Virus record (IMG/VR): IMGVR_UViG_3300009149_000025
Coordinates: 1-64,000 of that record
Strand: one strand, 5' to 3'
From: a virus
Length of the DNA stretch: 64,000 nt
Shown: piece by piece, positions 1,725 to 60,843 of the stretch
Position numbering within the stretch: the stretch's first letter is position 1
How the letters are laid out: each line of letters starts with the position of its first letter
Position numbers and translations under genes: made by a program
The notes under the pieces: generated by a model
Databases searched by the model: none
Told to the model about the DNA's origin: nothing
Seen by the model: the letters and a program-made list of their open reading frames with translations, nothing else

Positions 1725-4700
1725 GTGGATAAATCAGATAAGTTGATGTTTTTTAATAAAGAGGGATACCCTTACAATTTCCAATATGATGAAATAAATC
1801 AAAGGTGGGATGGAAAATTATTATTTGACGAAAATAGTAGTGAAGTGTTTAAAACACTTGGTATGTATATTTTTGAAAAGGTATACCCTATTGACATATC
1901 ATTATATGTGGATTTTGAACCATCACAATTATTTAATTGGAGTGGTATGACATTTGCTGCAAAAACATATGAAGATCAATGGGTAACAAATATAGAAAAG
2001 GTAAATAATGATCCAAATTTTCATACTAAATGGATATATGGTACAGATTTTGATATTAGATTTAGACCTGGGACTATTGTAACATTTTCTGGATACACGA
2101 ATGAATTAGTTGGTTCATATTGGTCAGATTTTATTAATTATGCATATTTTAATGTTCTTGGGACAAAATCGAATGCAATATTAATTTCTACAATAACAGA
2201 TAATCAAACATTTGATGGTTTTGTATTTCAAACAGGTGCAACAATAACAAGTCATAATATAATAAAAGTTCCTGATTATGGTAATCAGTATTTAGTTGAT
2301 ATTAACAATTTAAATTACTATGATGGTAAGAAAATTAATGTGGTTAGTTCCATCAATAATGACGGAGTCTATACATATAAAGATTATAGTATTTTAAAAA
2401 ATAGAGTATTTGATTTTGAATTATCACCAGAAACAACAGGTACATTAGACATTGAATTAACACTATACACAGAAAGACCAAAATTATATTCAGGTCCAGT
2501 TGAAATAGAAATTTTGAGCATGGCTGAAAATGGTACAATAATTACATTTAAAAATGACATAAATAATGATATAGAATTTTTCAATACTGGACAGACAATG
2601 GTATTTGAAAGATTGGATGGTGGTGGTGTTTTTTCATCAAACCCAATATTTACAATAACTGGATATAAAGATAAAGAGTTAATTATAGAAGATAATATAG
2701 AATTTGTTGAAGAATATGATAGATATTTTATTGAAATACCAAGTTTATCTGGATTGACTGGATTGACATATATTAACCAAATATATTTAGAAGCCGACCC
2801 AATAATTACAGGTACTACTGGTTCAACAATACATAATGGTAGATTATTTGATGTTATATCTGTAAATTTATTATATCCAGGGGATTCGACTAAATCTGGT
2901 GTAAGAATTGAAGTGGATCAATATGTATCGGATGAAGTTTTGAATAATTATAAAATATATAAGAAATTTAAAAGATCTCAAATACAAGTGATTTATGCAC
3001 AAGTGTCTTATGCGTCAACAACATATAGTGGTGATGCTATTTGTTATACCACTAGTAACGTTATAAATTTATATCAAGATATTTTATTTTCTGGTGATAC
3101 AAGTTATTATTATGAAAATACGGTAGATGCATTAAACATAAGATATGAAACATACCTTAGAAGTTATGGTGTACAATTATATCACTATAATTATGATGGG
3201 AGTAATTATTTAATGATAGAAGGTATTCATGATTATAATTATAATCCATATTTTGATGTGACAGCATCGATAGATGGGACACCTTTAACAATAGGAAATA
3301 ATTTTACATTTACAACTGGATTTACAAATTCTGATGTTTATTATTTTGAATTAGAAGAACAATTGGTATATGAAAAAATAAATTTATATGAAACTAATAA
3401 GTTAAATAGAAATTTCAATTCTGAAATTTTATTAGATTTAAATAATGATTTAATAGATTATGGATTTAAAGTCATATTAAATAGTACTGAATATTTTATA
3501 AATTATGCAAGTACAAGTGGAACAACATCGTATACAAATGAAACAATTAATGATTTTATATTAAAATATGAAGACGTTTTTGATAGACAAGGGTTCAGTA
3601 TTTATAGTGGATATACTGATGGTTATACTTTACATATAGATGGTAAATATCCTAATGTTGGTGTTGTTGATATTGATGTTTTTGTAAATATATATTCAAC
3701 ATATTCGTTAACAACTAGTTTTAATGATGGTGTGGTATTATCAAGCAATCAATTAAAATCTACACCAATTCCAAGTACAAGTACTAGTGTGGATTTTTAT
3801 GATATGGAATTATCTACAGGAATGATAATATCTATTAATGGTAGTAAAAATTCTCTAAATAATAGAGAATATAATATAATTAGAGTAGATAGTGATACGA
3901 TACAATTATCATATCAAGGTTCATTTTTCTATGAATATAATGTTGTTGCAAATGTAACAACAAGAGAATTTTTAAGAAAACCAAGAAGTTACTATAATAA
4001 AATAGTAGATTATAAATTTTCATGGGAACCAGCACAACAAGGTGAAATATCTAAAGATATTTTCTTTTATGATTATTCTGGTGAACAGTTAACACCATAT
4101 AATGATATATCTGGATTGACATATACAGGTGTAAAACCATTGTATGATGAAAATAGTTCTACTAAAGTTTTCTTAAATGATAAACCAAATAAATTTGATT
4201 ATGGAGTAAATAACCCATCAGTTCAACAGACAATATTTGAATCAATCACACATAGATTAGATAATTTGAATGATAGTGATACATATGATTATGTTCCTGT
4301 TCCAATGGAAATATTTATTGGGTTTAATTCGCCATATGAAGGTGTATCAACAAATGAACTAAAATTAGAAAAAATAGAATATTGTGTATTTTCTGGAACA
4401 ACACAAGAAAGTGGAACAACACAATTTCAACAACAATTTATAATAACTGGAAATACAATATCTTATATTACAAATGATTATTTATTTGATATAACAGATT
4501 ATGGGTTTGAAGTAGATCAACTAATTACTGTAGATTTAATAGACACTAGTCTAACTGGTCAAACAGTTTATGAAGATTATACAACATATAGAATTAAAGA
4601 CATTACCCCTAAAAATATTTTTATTGATAGAAATTACTCTGATGATTTAGTTGCATTCGATACAGTAGATATGTTTAATCTAAGTGGTAAAACATTTACA

Positions 4701-9081: not shown

Positions 9082-9258
9082 ATGATAGGAAGGCCTAAGA
9101 TTAAAAATAAGAAAAAGAATTTATCATTATCATTAAATATTGAATTAGTAAAGATATTAGATAAATATTTAGAAGATAAAGATATTAATAAATCTAAATA
9201 TGTAGAATACCTTATTAAAAAGGATATGAATAAATCAAATAAAGAATTTAATATATAG
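9082..9258 (+). CDS. Ribbon-helix-helix protein (RPK type)
   Basis: 58 aa from ATG 9082 to TAG 9256-9258. It starts MIGRPKIKNKKKNLSLSLN, then has a helix and INKSKYVEYLIKKDM. The G/A-R-P-K basic arm, the beta strand and the K-S-x-Y-x-E-x-L-I-K-K-D-M helix are shared with the RHH at 62554-62763, which also sits divergent from a nuclease-coupled RHH. It is therefore one half of a duplicated divergent RHH pair. It uses a UAG stop, showing that UAG terminates in this genome. The gap to the next gene is 4 nt. Confidence 0.75.
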   Translation: MIGRPKIKNKKKNLSLSLNIELVKILDKYLEDKDINKSKYVEYLIKKDMNKSNKEFNI

Positions 9259-51607: not shown

Positions 51608-53929
51608 ATGGATTTATGGAATGTAAAATTTGATTGGGAATTTAATAGTGGAGTAACAGTATTTCCTAGTCAGATAATTATGACTTATGGAGTTTGGGAA
51701 AAAGTTAATAGATTAAATGAATATGTTAATGATAATACTATAGATAATTTAGATGAAGTTTATTTTAAATTTCAAAAGTGTATATCAGGATTGACATATC
51801 AATATGTATTAGATCTATATGATATATATGAAAGAAATATAATGGTTGGTGATGTGGAATATACTGAATTGTTTTATAATGAATATGATGTTATAAATGA
51901 ATATATGGGTAATTTCAATTATGTTGATTTTTATATAGATGAACAAATTGATATAAACCAAAGAATAACTAAAATTGATGGACATTATTTAAAATCAGCA
52001 CATAAAATATTAGTTGCTGGACAAACAGGTAAAACTGAAAATGGTATTTATTCATTTGACGTAGATGGATATTTACAGAAAACTACAGATTTAGATACAA
52101 CAGGTAATACATATAGATATGGGTGTCATGTAAAAATGGATAATAGTAATAACATAGAATTCTTTTTACAAAATAGTGGTAATACATTTCCAATAACAGA
52201 TGAAGAAATGGATTTTATGACAGGGCACACTTATATATTGAAGAATGGGTTTGAATATAATATAAATAATACGGGAACAACATATGATAGTATACCAAAA
52301 TTGTGGTTTACAGATTATAATTTTGCTAGAAAATTAAATAAATTAAATTATAGTTTATATAATACAATAGAAGTACCGACAATACCAACAACTACTTTTT
52401 CAATACAATATAGAAATAACCCACCAGTTGTTTTTGATGTATCTCTTGGAAATTCTCAGACATATGGAGGAGATTTTGAATATTCCATATATTCTGGTAA
52501 AACTATTTTAACATTATTAGATACAGTATCTTCTACATTTTGTAAACCAGGTGATTATTTATATATCGATACAAGGTCCAATATTACATCTACTGATAAT
52601 ATTGCATTATTTAATACAATAGTAGATAGTTTCGATGGTACTAATATTATATTGAATGAATATGTTCCAAATTATGTTCTATCTGGTGATACATCACAGA
52701 CTTTGGTTATTGATAATCTTAATAATATTAGACCGAGTCTTGGAGATATCAATTTGATATATTTAAATGGTCATTATTATAGTGAGTTTTTTACATTTAG
52801 TGGAGAAACTCTTGATCAATGGTCTGGAACAGTGAATTTAAAAATCATTCCAAAGGAAAATGAATATAGTAAATATATTGATTATGACGCATTTACTTTT
52901 ACATTCGATTCAACTGATTATACGTTCACATCAGATAACCATTACATAGATTATAAGTTATATGAACATTTGAGTGGTATTACTAGTGATGTATTTAATA
53001 GTTCATTTGATTTGGGTTCAGGGTATACTATGAGTGAATTTTCATCACAATATACATATTTGATAGATGATACATCTTATCCCCAACAGATAGTAGAACA
53101 AGACAGTCCAATAAAAATAACACCAGCATCAGAAGGTAGTTTAGATAATTTCTATAAATATACAAGTGTTTATATTAATGAAAATTATGATGATAAAGTT
53201 TTTGTTTTAGATAAGGATAATACATCAATAACAATTGAAAAACCATTTTCTATATCAGTAAAAGGCGACATAACGGGGATTACTTCATTTTATTCATTAA
53301 CAGGTATTTCTGAAACGTTGTATGATGTTTATTTAAATACAGGTGTAACATATTACACTAAAGATGATGAATTTAGAGCAAGAATTTATAGGACTTATAA
53401 TGAATTATTATCAGTAGATAGTAGAATAAAAGAATATACAACAGGTACAATTACCGCAAATGATAAAAATAATTATATTCTTAAACTTTATAATTATAGA
53501 AATGGATATATTACCGATTTAACTGGTAATACAATAGGTGATGTTTATTATGAAAATGATAATAACCTATTATTTAAACCATTAGAAATAGTTGATATTG
53601 GTATTGATAAACAATCAAAAATGCCTCTTTTAATTTATAATGACGATTTACGAATATCAGATACTATATCCAGTGGTCATACTGTAAGTATAATTAAAGA
53701 TTCAGTTGAAAGTAATATTACATTGATTGATGGGATGACTATTGAAAAATTAAAAGTTAAGTATATTTGGATTTTTAATGCAATAATTGAAGATGCCTTA
53801 ATTGGTGAAGATGAATATGGTTTGGTATGGTATAAAGGAACATGGGTATGTGGAGATTGGACAGATGGTACATGGTATTCGGGGACTTGGTTAAATGGGA
53901 CATGGAAAAATGGTAAATGGTTAAGTTGA
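51608..53929 (+). CDS. Large tail/fibre protein, first part (ends at in-frame UGA)
   Basis: 773 aa before a TGA at 53927-53929. The N-terminus (WNVKFDWEFNSGVTVFPSQI) and strand-rich, Tyr/Asn/Asp-rich body resemble the 1361-aa tail protein. The last ~30 residues start a W-x-x-G-x-W repeat (YKGTWVCGDWTDGTWYSGTW). The same repeat continues in the same frame after the stop. Either the two parts are one readthrough protein of 1063 residues or two polypeptides. The role is inferred as a fibre or baseplate component. Confidence 0.6.
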   Translation: MDLWNVKFDWEFNSGVTVFPSQIIMTYGVWEKVNRLNEYVNDNTIDNLDEVYFKFQKCISGLTYQYVLDLYDIYERNIMVGDVEYTELFYNEYDVINEYMGNFNYVDFYIDEQIDINQRITKIDGHYLKSAHKILVAGQTGKTENGIYSFDVDGYLQKTTDLDTTGNTYRYGCHVKMDNSNNIEFFLQNSGNTFPITDEEMDFMTGHTYILKNGFEYNINNTGTTYDSIPKLWFTDYNFARKLNKLNYSLYNTIEVPTIPTTTFSIQYRNNPPVVFDVSLGNSQTYGGDFEYSIYSGKTILTLLDTVSSTFCKPGDYLYIDTRSNITSTDNIALFNTIVDSFDGTNIILNEYVPNYVLSGDTSQTLVIDNLNNIRPSLGDINLIYLNGHYYSEFFTFSGETLDQWSGTVNLKIIPKENEYSKYIDYDAFTFTFDSTDYTFTSDNHYIDYKLYEHLSGITSDVFNSSFDLGSGYTMSEFSSQYTYLIDDTSYPQQIVEQDSPIKITPASEGSLDNFYKYTSVYINENYDDKVFVLDKDNTSITIEKPFSISVKGDITGITSFYSLTGISETLYDVYLNTGVTYYTKDDEFRARIYRTYNELLSVDSRIKEYTTGTITANDKNNYILKLYNYRNGYITDLTGNTIGDVYYENDNNLLFKPLEIVDIGIDKQSKMPLLIYNDDLRISDTISSGHTVSIIKDSVESNITLIDGMTIEKLKVKYIWIFNAIIEDALIGEDEYGLVWYKGTWVCGDWTDGTWYSGTWLNGTWKNGKWLS

Positions 53930-54720
53930 TTGATAGATGAATTTAAATTCTTATCAACTGGTGTACTAAAAAAATTGGATGATAATAAAAAATATTCTAT
54001 ATTTGTAAATGGAACATGGAGAAATGGTTTATGGTATAATGGCATATTCGGTGACGAAATTTCTATAAGTGGATATACATCCGAAGCGTTCTTAAACCAT
54101 ACTGATGTTTTACCCAATTTAAATGTTGCGACATGGAAGAATGGTAATTTTTATGATGGGGTATTTAAAAATTCCATATGGGAAAATGGTAATTTTATAA
54201 GTGGTAAAATGTATGGGGGTTATTGGAAAAATGGTGTATTTAATAATGGAACATTTGATGGAAATTGGTGGAATGGATCATTTAGTAATTCAGATTTTGT
54301 TAGTGGGGTATGGGAAAATGGTGTATTTTCATATTCGAGACTTGGATACAACACTGGAACCACATCTGCAACAACTACAGAATGGTGGAATGGTAATATG
54401 AATTTATCTGAAGTTTATTCTGGTACATATGAACCAACTAACTACAATAGAACCCATTGGTATAGTGGTGTATTTAGAAGTAGTAAATGGTATGGTGGGC
54501 ATTTTTTTACTGGAAATTTCATAGATAGTACGTTTTACGATGGTGTATTTGGAACTAATGATACAGATGTATTAAGTGATAAGAGATATAGTGGTATAAC
54601 ATTTACTAGTGGTGATTTTATAAATGGATTATGGGTAAATGGGATATTTGTGGATGGTAATTTTAGAAATGGTGTATGGTTGAATGGGGTATTTATAGAT
54701 GGAAATTTAAGAACATTAAA
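53820..54720 (+). repeat. W-N-G coding repeats across the UGA
   Basis: Units of the form W-x-N-G-x-F/W recur about every 5-15 codons on both sides of the UGA at 53927 (for example GTWKNGKW before it and GTWRNGLWYNG after it). The pattern shows that the two frames encode one repeat domain. Confidence 0.75.
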
Positions 54721-54799
54721 TCCAAATATTACTCAGGGTAAAAATGTACCAACCCTATATGTTGGAAACAAAAATATTAAAAATCGTAAAATATTATAA
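53930..54799 (+). CDS. Large tail/fibre protein, second part (W-N-G repeat domain)
   Basis: 289 aa in the same frame as the preceding part. The first codon is TTG right after TGA; there is no in-frame ATG until residue ~90, so readthrough or TTG re-initiation is needed. It is dominated by W-K-N-G, W-E-N-G and N-G-V-F repeats, which resemble beta-solenoid or MORN-type repeats. The end is KNIKNRKIL. Probable receptor-binding or shaft region. If the stop is a nonsense mutation, this half would be lost. Confidence 0.55.
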   Translation: MIDEFKFLSTGVLKKLDDNKKYSIFVNGTWRNGLWYNGIFGDEISISGYTSEAFLNHTDVLPNLNVATWKNGNFYDGVFKNSIWENGNFISGKMYGGYWKNGVFNNGTFDGNWWNGSFSNSDFVSGVWENGVFSYSRLGYNTGTTSATTTEWWNGNMNLSEVYSGTYEPTNYNRTHWYSGVFRSSKWYGGHFFTGNFIDSTFYDGVFGTNDTDVLSDKRYSGITFTSGDFINGLWVNGIFVDGNFRNGVWLNGVFIDGNLRTLNPNITQGKNVPTLYVGNKNIKNRKIL

Positions 54800-55965: not shown

Positions 55966-56526
55966 ATGGCTCTAACTATATCAGAATTTAAGAAGTTTTC
56001 AATAGACAAACACAATTTACCATCAGATTCACAGAGATACGGAAGTGCACCGTACGCGGTTCACTTAGATGGTGTAGATAAAGTATTTGAAGAATATGAA
56101 TATTTACTTGTTGGTGAAGATAAGATAAATGCAAGATATGCGATTTGGGGACATGATTTGATAGAAGATACAGATGTTAATGTTAGGGTAATTGCCAAAT
56201 TAACTAATCACATCGTTGCTGATATCGTATATAGAGTAACTAATGAAAGAGGGTACTGTAGAAAAGAAAAGAATTTCAAAACTTATCCAAAAATTTGGTC
56301 AAGTGATTTAGCAATTTTTGTTAAGTTATGTGATAGAATTTCTAATACAAGAAACAGTAAAATCTATGGACAAAAATCAGGTGTTGAAGAAGATGTTGAA
56401 AAGGCAGTTGAAATGTATAAGGTATATAAAGAAGAATATCCTATATTCAGATATGCTTTAAAGGTGAGAGGGTTATATAAAGTAATGTGGGATGAATTAG
56501 ATAGATTATATGACTATGAAGCTTAA
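55966..56526 (+). CDS. HD-domain protein, (p)ppGpp-hydrolase (Mesh1/SpoT-HD) like
   Basis: 186 aa. QRYGSAPYAVHLDGVDKVF carries the first His, YAIWGHDLIEDTDVN the central H-D-x-x-E-D-T, and LAIFVKLCDRISNTRN the last Asp-containing helix, all as in the HD hydrolase of SpoT/RelA and Mesh1. It could remove the alarmone ppGpp and keep host growth permissive. No synthetase domain is present. Host-like promoter upstream. Confidence 0.75.
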   Translation: MALTISEFKKFSIDKHNLPSDSQRYGSAPYAVHLDGVDKVFEEYEYLLVGEDKINARYAIWGHDLIEDTDVNVRVIAKLTNHIVADIVYRVTNERGYCRKEKNFKTYPKIWSSDLAIFVKLCDRISNTRNSKIYGQKSGVEEDVEKAVEMYKVYKEEYPIFRYALKVRGLYKVMWDELDRLYDYEA

Positions 56527-58261: not shown

Positions 58262-59365
58262 ATGAAGGCGGTAATTGGATTAGGATTCGGTGATGAAGGT
58301 AAAGGTTTAGTTACTAATTATTTAGAAGGATCATTGGTGATTAGATATTCAGGTGGACAACAAGCTGGACACAATGTTGTTTTGAAAGATGGTAAAAGCC
58401 ATATCTTTTCAAACTTCGGTTCAGGTACTTTGAAAGGTATACCAACATATTGGTCAAAATTTTGTACAGTTGATCCAGTTGGTATGATGAATGAACTAAA
58501 TGATTTATTGGAAAATGGGTTCAATCCCGTTTTGTATATCGATGGTGATTCTCCAATTACCACTCCATATGATAAGTATCACAATAGTAATAATGTAGCT
58601 GATTTAAATCATGGTACATGTGGTGTCGGTGTCGGTTCTACATTTAATAGAGAAGAACATTTTTACCATTTAACATTCAGTGATATCTTTAATTCGTGGA
58701 TATTAGATACTAAATTAAATAATATTGCTAAATATTATGGATATTTGTCTCATGAATTAATAGAACAAGTTGAAGAATTTTTAATTATGTGTGATGAAAT
58801 GGTCAAAAGTGGAAATTTTCATTTAGTTTATGGTATTCCAGATGGTTTTGATGAAGATGGATATGTTTTTGAAGGTTCACAAGGGTTGTTATTAGACCAA
58901 CACTATGGATTTTTCCCACATGTTACAAGATGTAATGTAGGAACAACAAATATTTTAGAAATGGTTACTGATAAATCTTTCGAATTATTCTTGGTGACAA
59001 GAGCTTATCAAACAAGACATGGTAATGGTCCAATGACTAATGATAATATAGATTTTGATGTAAATAACCCAAATGAAACAAATGTAGATAATGAATATCA
59101 AGGTAAATTTAGAAAATCAATTCTTGATGTATCATTGTTAGAATATGGTATAAATAAAGATAAGTATATTAGAGAAAATCCTAAAAATTTAGTAATTACT
59201 TGTCTGGATCAAGTTGATGAATATACATTTACATATGATGGGTTGATGGTTTTATGTGATGATGAAGATGAATTTGTTAAAAGAATTTCAGATATTCTAA
59301 ATATAGATAGTGTGTATATAAGTAAATCAAACGTTAGTGAAAATATAAAAAAATGGAATAAATAA
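58262..59365 (+). CDS. Adenylosuccinate synthetase-like enzyme (PurA/PurZ family)
   Basis: 367 aa. VIGLGFGDEGKGLV at 3-16 is the P-loop with the catalytic Asp; YSGGQQAGHNVV replaces the canonical G-G-N-N-A-G-H; HGTCGVGVGSTFN, FEGSQGLLLDQHYG and TRHGNGPMTNDN follow in family order. It is shorter than bacterial PurA (~430), as in archaeal and phage forms. PurA joins IMP and Asp; PurZ acts on dGMP in 2-aminoadenine DNA synthesis. The retained Asp in GDEGKG argues for PurA-like chemistry. A terminator follows. Confidence 0.8.
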   Translation: MKAVIGLGFGDEGKGLVTNYLEGSLVIRYSGGQQAGHNVVLKDGKSHIFSNFGSGTLKGIPTYWSKFCTVDPVGMMNELNDLLENGFNPVLYIDGDSPITTPYDKYHNSNNVADLNHGTCGVGVGSTFNREEHFYHLTFSDIFNSWILDTKLNNIAKYYGYLSHELIEQVEEFLIMCDEMVKSGNFHLVYGIPDGFDEDGYVFEGSQGLLLDQHYGFFPHVTRCNVGTTNILEMVTDKSFELFLVTRAYQTRHGNGPMTNDNIDFDVNNPNETNVDNEYQGKFRKSILDVSLLEYGINKDKYIRENPKNLVITCLDQVDEYTFTYDGLMVLCDDEDEFVKRISDILNIDSVYISKSNVSENIKKWNK

Positions 59366-60124: not shown

Positions 60125-60802
60125 ATGAAAACAGTACTAATAGAAATTAGGGACATGGAAGGTGGTGATGATGCTAAGCTTTTAGTCCAAGAAATGAAAA
60201 ATATTTATCTAAAATCAATAAGAATAAATGATTTTAGAATTACATCTATGGATGAAAAATATGGTTAGTTAACCATTGAAGTCTGTGGTGATAATGTAAA
60301 AAAATTCTTCTCAAAAGAAATAGGTGGACACAGATTTCAAAGAGTTCCACCAACCGAATCAAAAGGTAGAGTACACACTTCTACAATTTCCGTATCAGTT
60401 TTAGATAGTAAGTCAGAAGTATCTGATAATCTAAATATGGATGATATTAATGTTTTTTATACAAAAGGAACAGGACCTGGTGGACAACATAAGAATAAAA
60501 CACAATCATGTGTTAATATGGTACATATACCTACAGGTATAAAGGTAATGGTAGATGGGAGAAATCAACACCACAATTACGATGGAGCTTTAAAAGAATT
60601 AAAAAAAAGATTGAAAGATAAGAATCAATCGGATTATGATAAAGGATATTTTGATGAAAAAAGAAATTAAATCGGTATTCAAAATAGAAGTAATCGTAGA
60701 AGAACTTACAATTTTAGAAATGGAATAGTAACAGATCATTTAACTAATAAGAGTACAACAGTGAAGAATGTATTAAAAGGAAAAATTGATTTATTACATT
60801 AA
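60125..60802 (+). pseudogene. prfA-like: RF1-like release factor gene with in-frame UAG and UAA
   Basis: One frame of 226 codons from ATG 60125 to TAA 60800-60802, interrupted only by TAG 60266-60268 and TAA 60668-60670. Part 1 (VLIEIRDMEGGDDAKLL) is the start of RF domain 2. Part 2 has the RF1 stop-recognition tripeptide PPT (RFQRVPPTESKGRVHTS) and the catalytic G-G-Q (GTGPGGQHKNKTQSCVNM). Part 3 is the C-terminal RSNRRRTYNF and GIVTDH. RF domain 1 is absent. GGQ and P-x-T are intact. It is either recoded (autoregulated) or recently inactivated. Confidence 0.8.
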
Positions 60803-60810
60803 TGGATAAA

Positions 60811-60843
60811 AAAAACCTCAAATAATTTATTTGAGGTTTTTTT
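60811..60843 (+). terminator. Terminator after the RF1-like gene
   Basis: AAAACCTCAAATAA / TATTTGAGGTTTT stem followed by T run, 8 nt after the last RF1 stop. Its place after the full 226-codon frame, and not after the first or second stop, supports a single gene. Confidence 0.85.

Follow-up and report, generated by a model that had tools for sequence, protein, structure and literature searches.

An RF1-type release factor gene of a phage, lacking domain I, occupies positions 60125-60802 of the window (the whole stretch of 64,000 nucleotides of viral DNA analysed here; all window features given below lie on its plus strand), and we consider it likely that this gene is expressed through a programmed stop, the in-frame UAG at codon 48 (60266-60268). 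Comparison with its relatives suggests that its family is one in which programmed stops act as gates and, more broadly, that these viruses keep a release factor under control by letting ribosomes pass a stop signal. Stops of this kind occur in 91% of our non-redundant sample of RF1-type genes, taken from large phages and from megaplasmids; they come in two mechanisms and make use of all three stop codons. If readthrough truly takes place, these genes would represent a new point at which translation is controlled while a phage infects, and a collection of natural bacterial readthrough elements; it would also explain why annotation splits them in two.

The anatomy of the gene is straightforward. 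Its translation begins at an ATG and runs in a single frame over 225 residues to a terminal TAA at 60800, with no indel and with the TAG at 60266 and the TAA at 60668 as its internal stops, just as the preliminary description had reported. The same description had noted an intact PPT and GGQ and a terminator after the full frame; the translation places the RF1-type stop-codon recognition tripeptide PPT at 60347-60355 and the catalytic GGQ at 60479-60487, and a terminator-like, AT-rich hairpin followed by a T run (60809-60843, -16.4 kcal/mol) comes after the terminal stop. In addition to these motifs the gene has both Pfam domains that mark RF1 membership, PCRF (1.6e-18, residues 2-90) and RF-1 (2.1e-22, residues 101-205). 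Its best NCBIfam fit is PRK00591 (RF1) at 193.6 bits, higher than the 170.5 of L002 and the 160 of L003, but the window gene lacks both the score above 400 and the domain I of an RF1 equivalog. Since the RF1 model is matched from position 104 onward only, domain I is missing. An AlphaFold2 model in which both stops were set to Gln has a mean pLDDT of 90.9 and a TM score of 0.90 to ribosome-bound RF1. In sequence and modelled fold, the gene is a phage RF1-type release factor without domain I. Elsewhere in the window, an adenylosuccinate synthetase family gene (58262-59365; PF00709 2e-36, with a weak PurZ match) lies near an HD-like RelA/SpoT-type gene (55966-56526), possibly forming a nucleotide-modification module.

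A genome-wide reassignment of UAG or UAA would dispose of both stops at once. Its probability is negligible: nothing beyond the two codons speaks for it, and the window and the flanks of the relatives use the standard code. Among the 76 ORFs in the window that reach 90 aa, 65 end in TAA, 9 in TGA and 2 in TAG; with code 11 these ORFs cover 87% of the window and one of 1361 codons stays open. A search for tRNA genes in the window returned none, and most other genes common to the window and G002 read without stops. The earlier opinion that general reassignment is unlikely, which pointed to genes ending in UAG at 9256, 45035, 47126 and 57284, is borne out by these counts, and all four codons are TAG. 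Code 4 was considered for the huge-phage relatives and is ruled out by their terminal TGAs (of the 526 ORFs with 150 codons or more that flank UGA-gated genes, 152 end in TGA) and by the use of TGG for other Trp residues (137 TGG codons in the 107 readthrough genes, where TGA is found at gate columns only), as well as by the in-frame TGAs in complete plasmids of Variovorax, Bosea and Rhizobium. The idea of selenocysteine insertion found no echo in Rfam, which at the gathering threshold matched only tRNA and tmRNA in the seven loci searched.

An argument for regulation comes from the family. The nearest relatives recovered by tblastn belong to huge phages of 485-735 kb. Scans of IMG/VR added about 200 further loci, and bacterial genomes, also scanned, supplied a small number besides; removal of duplicates left 159 genes, which come from phages, from a small number of contigs of bacterial genomes and from the window. 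An internal stop interrupts 145 of these non-redundant genes, a proportion that, like the others given here, holds for this family sample only, the census having been seeded from the window gene and one scan having contributed its best 80 matches. Leaving aside the UAA of the window, the stops sit in only 8 of about 220 alignment columns, around codons 32-54. In 107 genes the frame goes on unshifted after the stop, which is TGA in 96 cases, TGA plus TGA in seven, TGA plus TAG in two, TAG in L109, and TAG plus TAA in the window; the other 38 require a +1 shift at TGA (25), TAG (11) or TAA (2). No internal stop is present in the 14 remaining genes, 13 of which fall in one clade together with L211, the last one being L028. 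The ungated clade (L006, L054, L065, L067, L081, L153-L166) carries the motif GKH, or GQH in L164, instead of GGH, and may have lost the gate or never had it. On our tree, which was built quickly and leaves many forks open, the gate type switches at least 7 times, and UAG is exchanged with another stop at least 12 times. L094 captures such an event: it has TGG where its relatives have the gate TGA, and CTT-TAG-C a few codons later, which by sequence is one gate replaced by another. This gene (L094:4001-4661) lies in a contig binned as Hahella.

Copies are also found in isolate contigs of Gemmobacter caeni, Jiella and Thalassospira, and UGA-gated ones on complete isolate plasmids of Bosea (pBSY19_1), Rhizobium leguminosarum (pRlX5) and four Variovorax, with 99.2% identity or more across the gene in the latter. 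In the four Variovorax plasmids (L247:2959-3663) RefSeq breaks the gene at its TGA into two CDS, one called a hypothetical protein, the other a 'peptide chain release factor-like protein'. Arrays of tRNA genes are a frequent setting of gated RF1 genes in large phages or contigs (L022, L024, L032, L044, L087, L092 and L109). In L009, some 1.5 kb upstream of an RF1 gene with two UGA gates, ARAGORN gives a tRNA without an assigned type (3493-3569); its anticodon is written 'ccta' and contains CTA, which would read UAG. A second release factor-like stretch with a TAA in G005 (L099, G005:51923-52204) was rejected as a gated gene: it is an RF-1 domain fragment fused behind another ORF near the gated copy, and it looks like a recombination scar.

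Within this family, the UAG of the window falls on alignment column 58, one of the gate columns. Nine rows have a stop there, TAG in the window and L109, and TGA in L027, L037, L057, L063, L105, L107 and L108; in the Variovorax plasmids 'AKG*LNLEV' stands, by eye, at apparently the same place. After the window UAG (ggt TAG tta acc att gaa) the same frame continues with conserved coding, and the codon before it is GGT, with no CUU-stop slip of the prfB type and no change of frame. The window belongs to a clade of 19 rows (support 99) in which all other 18 are gated, and inside it groups with L002 and L010 (support 99). L002 and L010, its closest relatives, show 66% identity between them and have TGTCTTTAGCGGT and CUU-UAG-C in common; they are two clade members with a UAG frameshift gate. 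The gates of the other 18 rows are TGA at columns 42, 47 or 63, TAG at 63, and the CTT-TAG slip at 64; the window carries none of them, only the TAG at 58. Because the sites of its clade are 42, 47 and 63 for readthrough, or 64 for slippage, the alignment indicates that the use of column 58 in the window is convergent and not inherited. Had the UAG arisen by decay, the clade's own gate should persist, or the window gene should be the sole ungated member of its clade. A random nonsense mutation would land on one of the 8 gate columns with a probability of roughly 4%. The pattern suggests that the UAG is not random decay, and the earlier claim that it is a regulatory stop gains support from the eight rows that share its column and from the gates found nearby in 18 of 18 clade relatives.

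How ribosomes would pass the gates is hinted at by their contexts. All 38 slips have CTT directly before the stop, a codon that makes up 1.1% of downstream codons in the same genes, and 29 of them have a Shine-Dalgarno-like purine run just upstream; by analogy, this is the design of prfB. Downstream structure was not found in the slip group (z -0.28), as expected if the purine run serves instead. At unshifted readthrough stops, the base that follows is U in 1 of 117 cases, compared with 77 of 159 at terminal stops (Fisher 4e-22), a deficit to which constraint on the next codon could contribute. A U at this +4 position has been reported to lower readthrough (PMC5289835). The UGA group at column 38 combines the lack of +4 U with structure: a hairpin starts about 7 nt after the UGA, and downstream folding has a mean z of -4.0, whereas control stretches taken from these genes average -1.2. 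In 47 genes the 14 pairs of this hairpin covary, with 97.1% of cells paired and 18 cells with double changes; none of 500 shuffles matches either value, a count that is not a probability, the sequences being related, and slid versions stay below 48% paired. RNAalifold gave no useful consensus over all 59 divergent UGA sequences and gave one over the 47 in register. An Rfam family for the hairpin (L022-L222, alignment A5) was not matched in the loci scanned. The context at the gate of the window is mixed, and two of its features count against our main reading: it is the sole case of +4 U among the 117 readthrough stops, and the long stem predicted 3' of it (60271-60346, -16.5 kcal/mol), a weak candidate for a readthrough stimulator, is just mildly better than shuffled sequence (z about -1.8 to -2.0).

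Codon 182 (60668-60670), the in-frame UAA, has a different standing. The preliminary description had taken it for a second gate, and this part of its proposal found no support in the alignment: none of the 158 relatives has a stop in that column, which holds Gln in 143 of 159 rows, L002 and L010 among them, and the UAA is the sole internal stop in the C-terminal half of any of the 159 genes. Nor was RNA structure found 3' of it (z +0.8). It is probably a recent nonsense mutation or a strain variant, separate from the gate, and it may silence the window copy; an exact-pattern scan for strain variants at this codon detected none. The UAA would multiply the cost of readthrough, and its lack of a parallel also weighs on our preferred reading. 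A circuit in which both stops are gates and the UAA is decoded as Gln is, in our view, unlikely; UAA is usually the most efficient stop. It would draw on the nine other members with two in-frame stops (seven TGA plus TGA, two TGA plus TAG), on Gln being a residue that a near-cognate tRNA could insert, and on the Mimivirus eRF1, which requires two recoding events (PMC3521657). However, second stops in the other genes are confined to columns 42-63 and are never near the C-terminus. The fuller version of the idea, an RF1 counterpart of RF2 autoregulation in which the in-frame UAG and a second UAA gate would yield product only at very low RF1 activity, strikes us as likewise unlikely.

Neutral decay of both stops in a pseudogene would account for the uniqueness of the UAA, and a second window gene is interrupted as well: an in-frame TGA at 53927-53929 splits a WxNG-repeat protein of structural type (51608-54799) that is unbroken in three huge phages (L241-L243). 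This TGA can be read as readthrough, a split gene or an error, and it keeps a contig-level cause of the UAA in play. However, about 16.5 missense changes are expected per nonsense change under neutral random substitution, and, not counting the stop, the window gene differs at no more than 3 of the 42 highly conserved columns, much as its relatives do (2 in L010, 4 in L002). Conserved columns being eroded no more than in relatives, any loss of function must be recent. The score of the gene against the RF1 model exceeds those of L002 and L003, and its UAG falls on a gate column; altogether, we regard decay of both stops as very unlikely. The preliminary description had set against itself a picture of sense codons at both sites in close relatives together with further decay of this copy. 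Half of this picture applies to codon 182, where the relatives have sense codons; it does not apply to codon 48, and further decay is not seen. Finally, the window is a metagenome contig for which our scans found no near-identical copy, so that a consensus error at one or both codons may be suspected. We give this even less credit: the UAG sits on a gate column, in a frame with no other gate there, in a clade where 18 of 18 relatives are gated.

We return to the programmed UAG as the preferred reading. Ribosomes would normally stop at codon 48 and release a peptide of 47 residues; when termination at UAG is slow, as when RF1 runs short in the course of infection, a near-cognate tRNA would read the UAG and translation would continue in the same frame. 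The product would in turn terminate at UAG and UAA and so lower its own synthesis. In relatives, the same job would be done by an in-frame UGA or by a prfB-like +1 slip at CUU-stop. Both the passage of ribosomes through the gate and the feedback by the product are suggested by this comparative evidence. Because of the specificity of RF1, direct negative feedback is the simplest model for UAG gates, and it is plausible for the window gene. It is not a rule for the family: the majority of gates are UGA, a codon that canonical RF1 does not read. For this reason the earlier framing, in which the interruptions are the two codons that RF1 recognises, does not extend to the family. Unless specificity differs, direct feedback cannot be the common logic, a further point against our reading in its general form. 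The PPT tripeptide is kept in nearly all classes, and the abundance of UGA gates ahead of RF1-type proteins raises the question of codon specificity or of sensing of the host's RF2: UGA-gated proteins may also act at UGA, their gate may sense host RF2, or it may set a level only. Alternatively, the window gene could itself be gated by readthrough with no RF1 feedback, its gate reporting a shortage of host RF2 or fixing a low level of expression. We hold this as a tentative possibility, on the doubtful side. The UGA majority and the PxT-type motif retained by nearly all gated genes are in its favour, yet UAG and UAA gates arose repeatedly, also in the clade of the window, and there direct RF1 feedback is simpler.

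Earlier reports of such gates were not found in the literature searched, which lay mostly outside subscription papers and preprints, and a prior report is possible. A 2016 review states that RF2 genes with an early in-frame UGA and same-frame continuation have not been found, and that the corresponding arrangement of UAG in an RF1 gene 'is also unknown', a giant virus excepted (PMC5009743). The part of the huge-phage paper that lists RF1 and RF2 leaves internal stops unmentioned (PMC7162821).

Among known systems, a close analogy is the +1 frameshift of bacterial prfB (RF2), which also places an early in-frame stop in a release factor gene; 38 relatives, L002, L010 and 36 others, use its CUU-stop slip. 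It differs in that the relatives encode RF1-type proteins without domain I, that the window itself has no slip site, and that UAG is carried by 11 of the relatives' slips and by none of the 8,164 motif-bearing prfB genomes of a 2025 survey (PMC12421855). Bacterial RF1 (prfA) shares domains II-IV, the PxT and GGQ motifs and the fold modelled for the window protein, which lacks domain I and has 225 aa against about 360; the survey knows of no internal or programmed stop in prfA (PMC12421855). PrfH is likewise a short relative of RF1 and RF2 (its model has 200 positions), but with NCBIfam TIGR03072, whose cut-off is 166.65, the window gene reaches 61.6 bits, RF1 models fit far better, and we rejected this identity. 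The eRF1 genes of Mimivirus and Megavirus (R726, mg280) provide the other precedent of a viral release factor behind recoded stops, combining UGA readthrough with a CUU-UAG-C or CUU-UAA-C slip (PMC3521657). Those encode a protein of eukaryotic/archaeal type in viruses of amoebae, whereas the genes described here are of the bacterial RF1 type, and a single recoding event is their rule.
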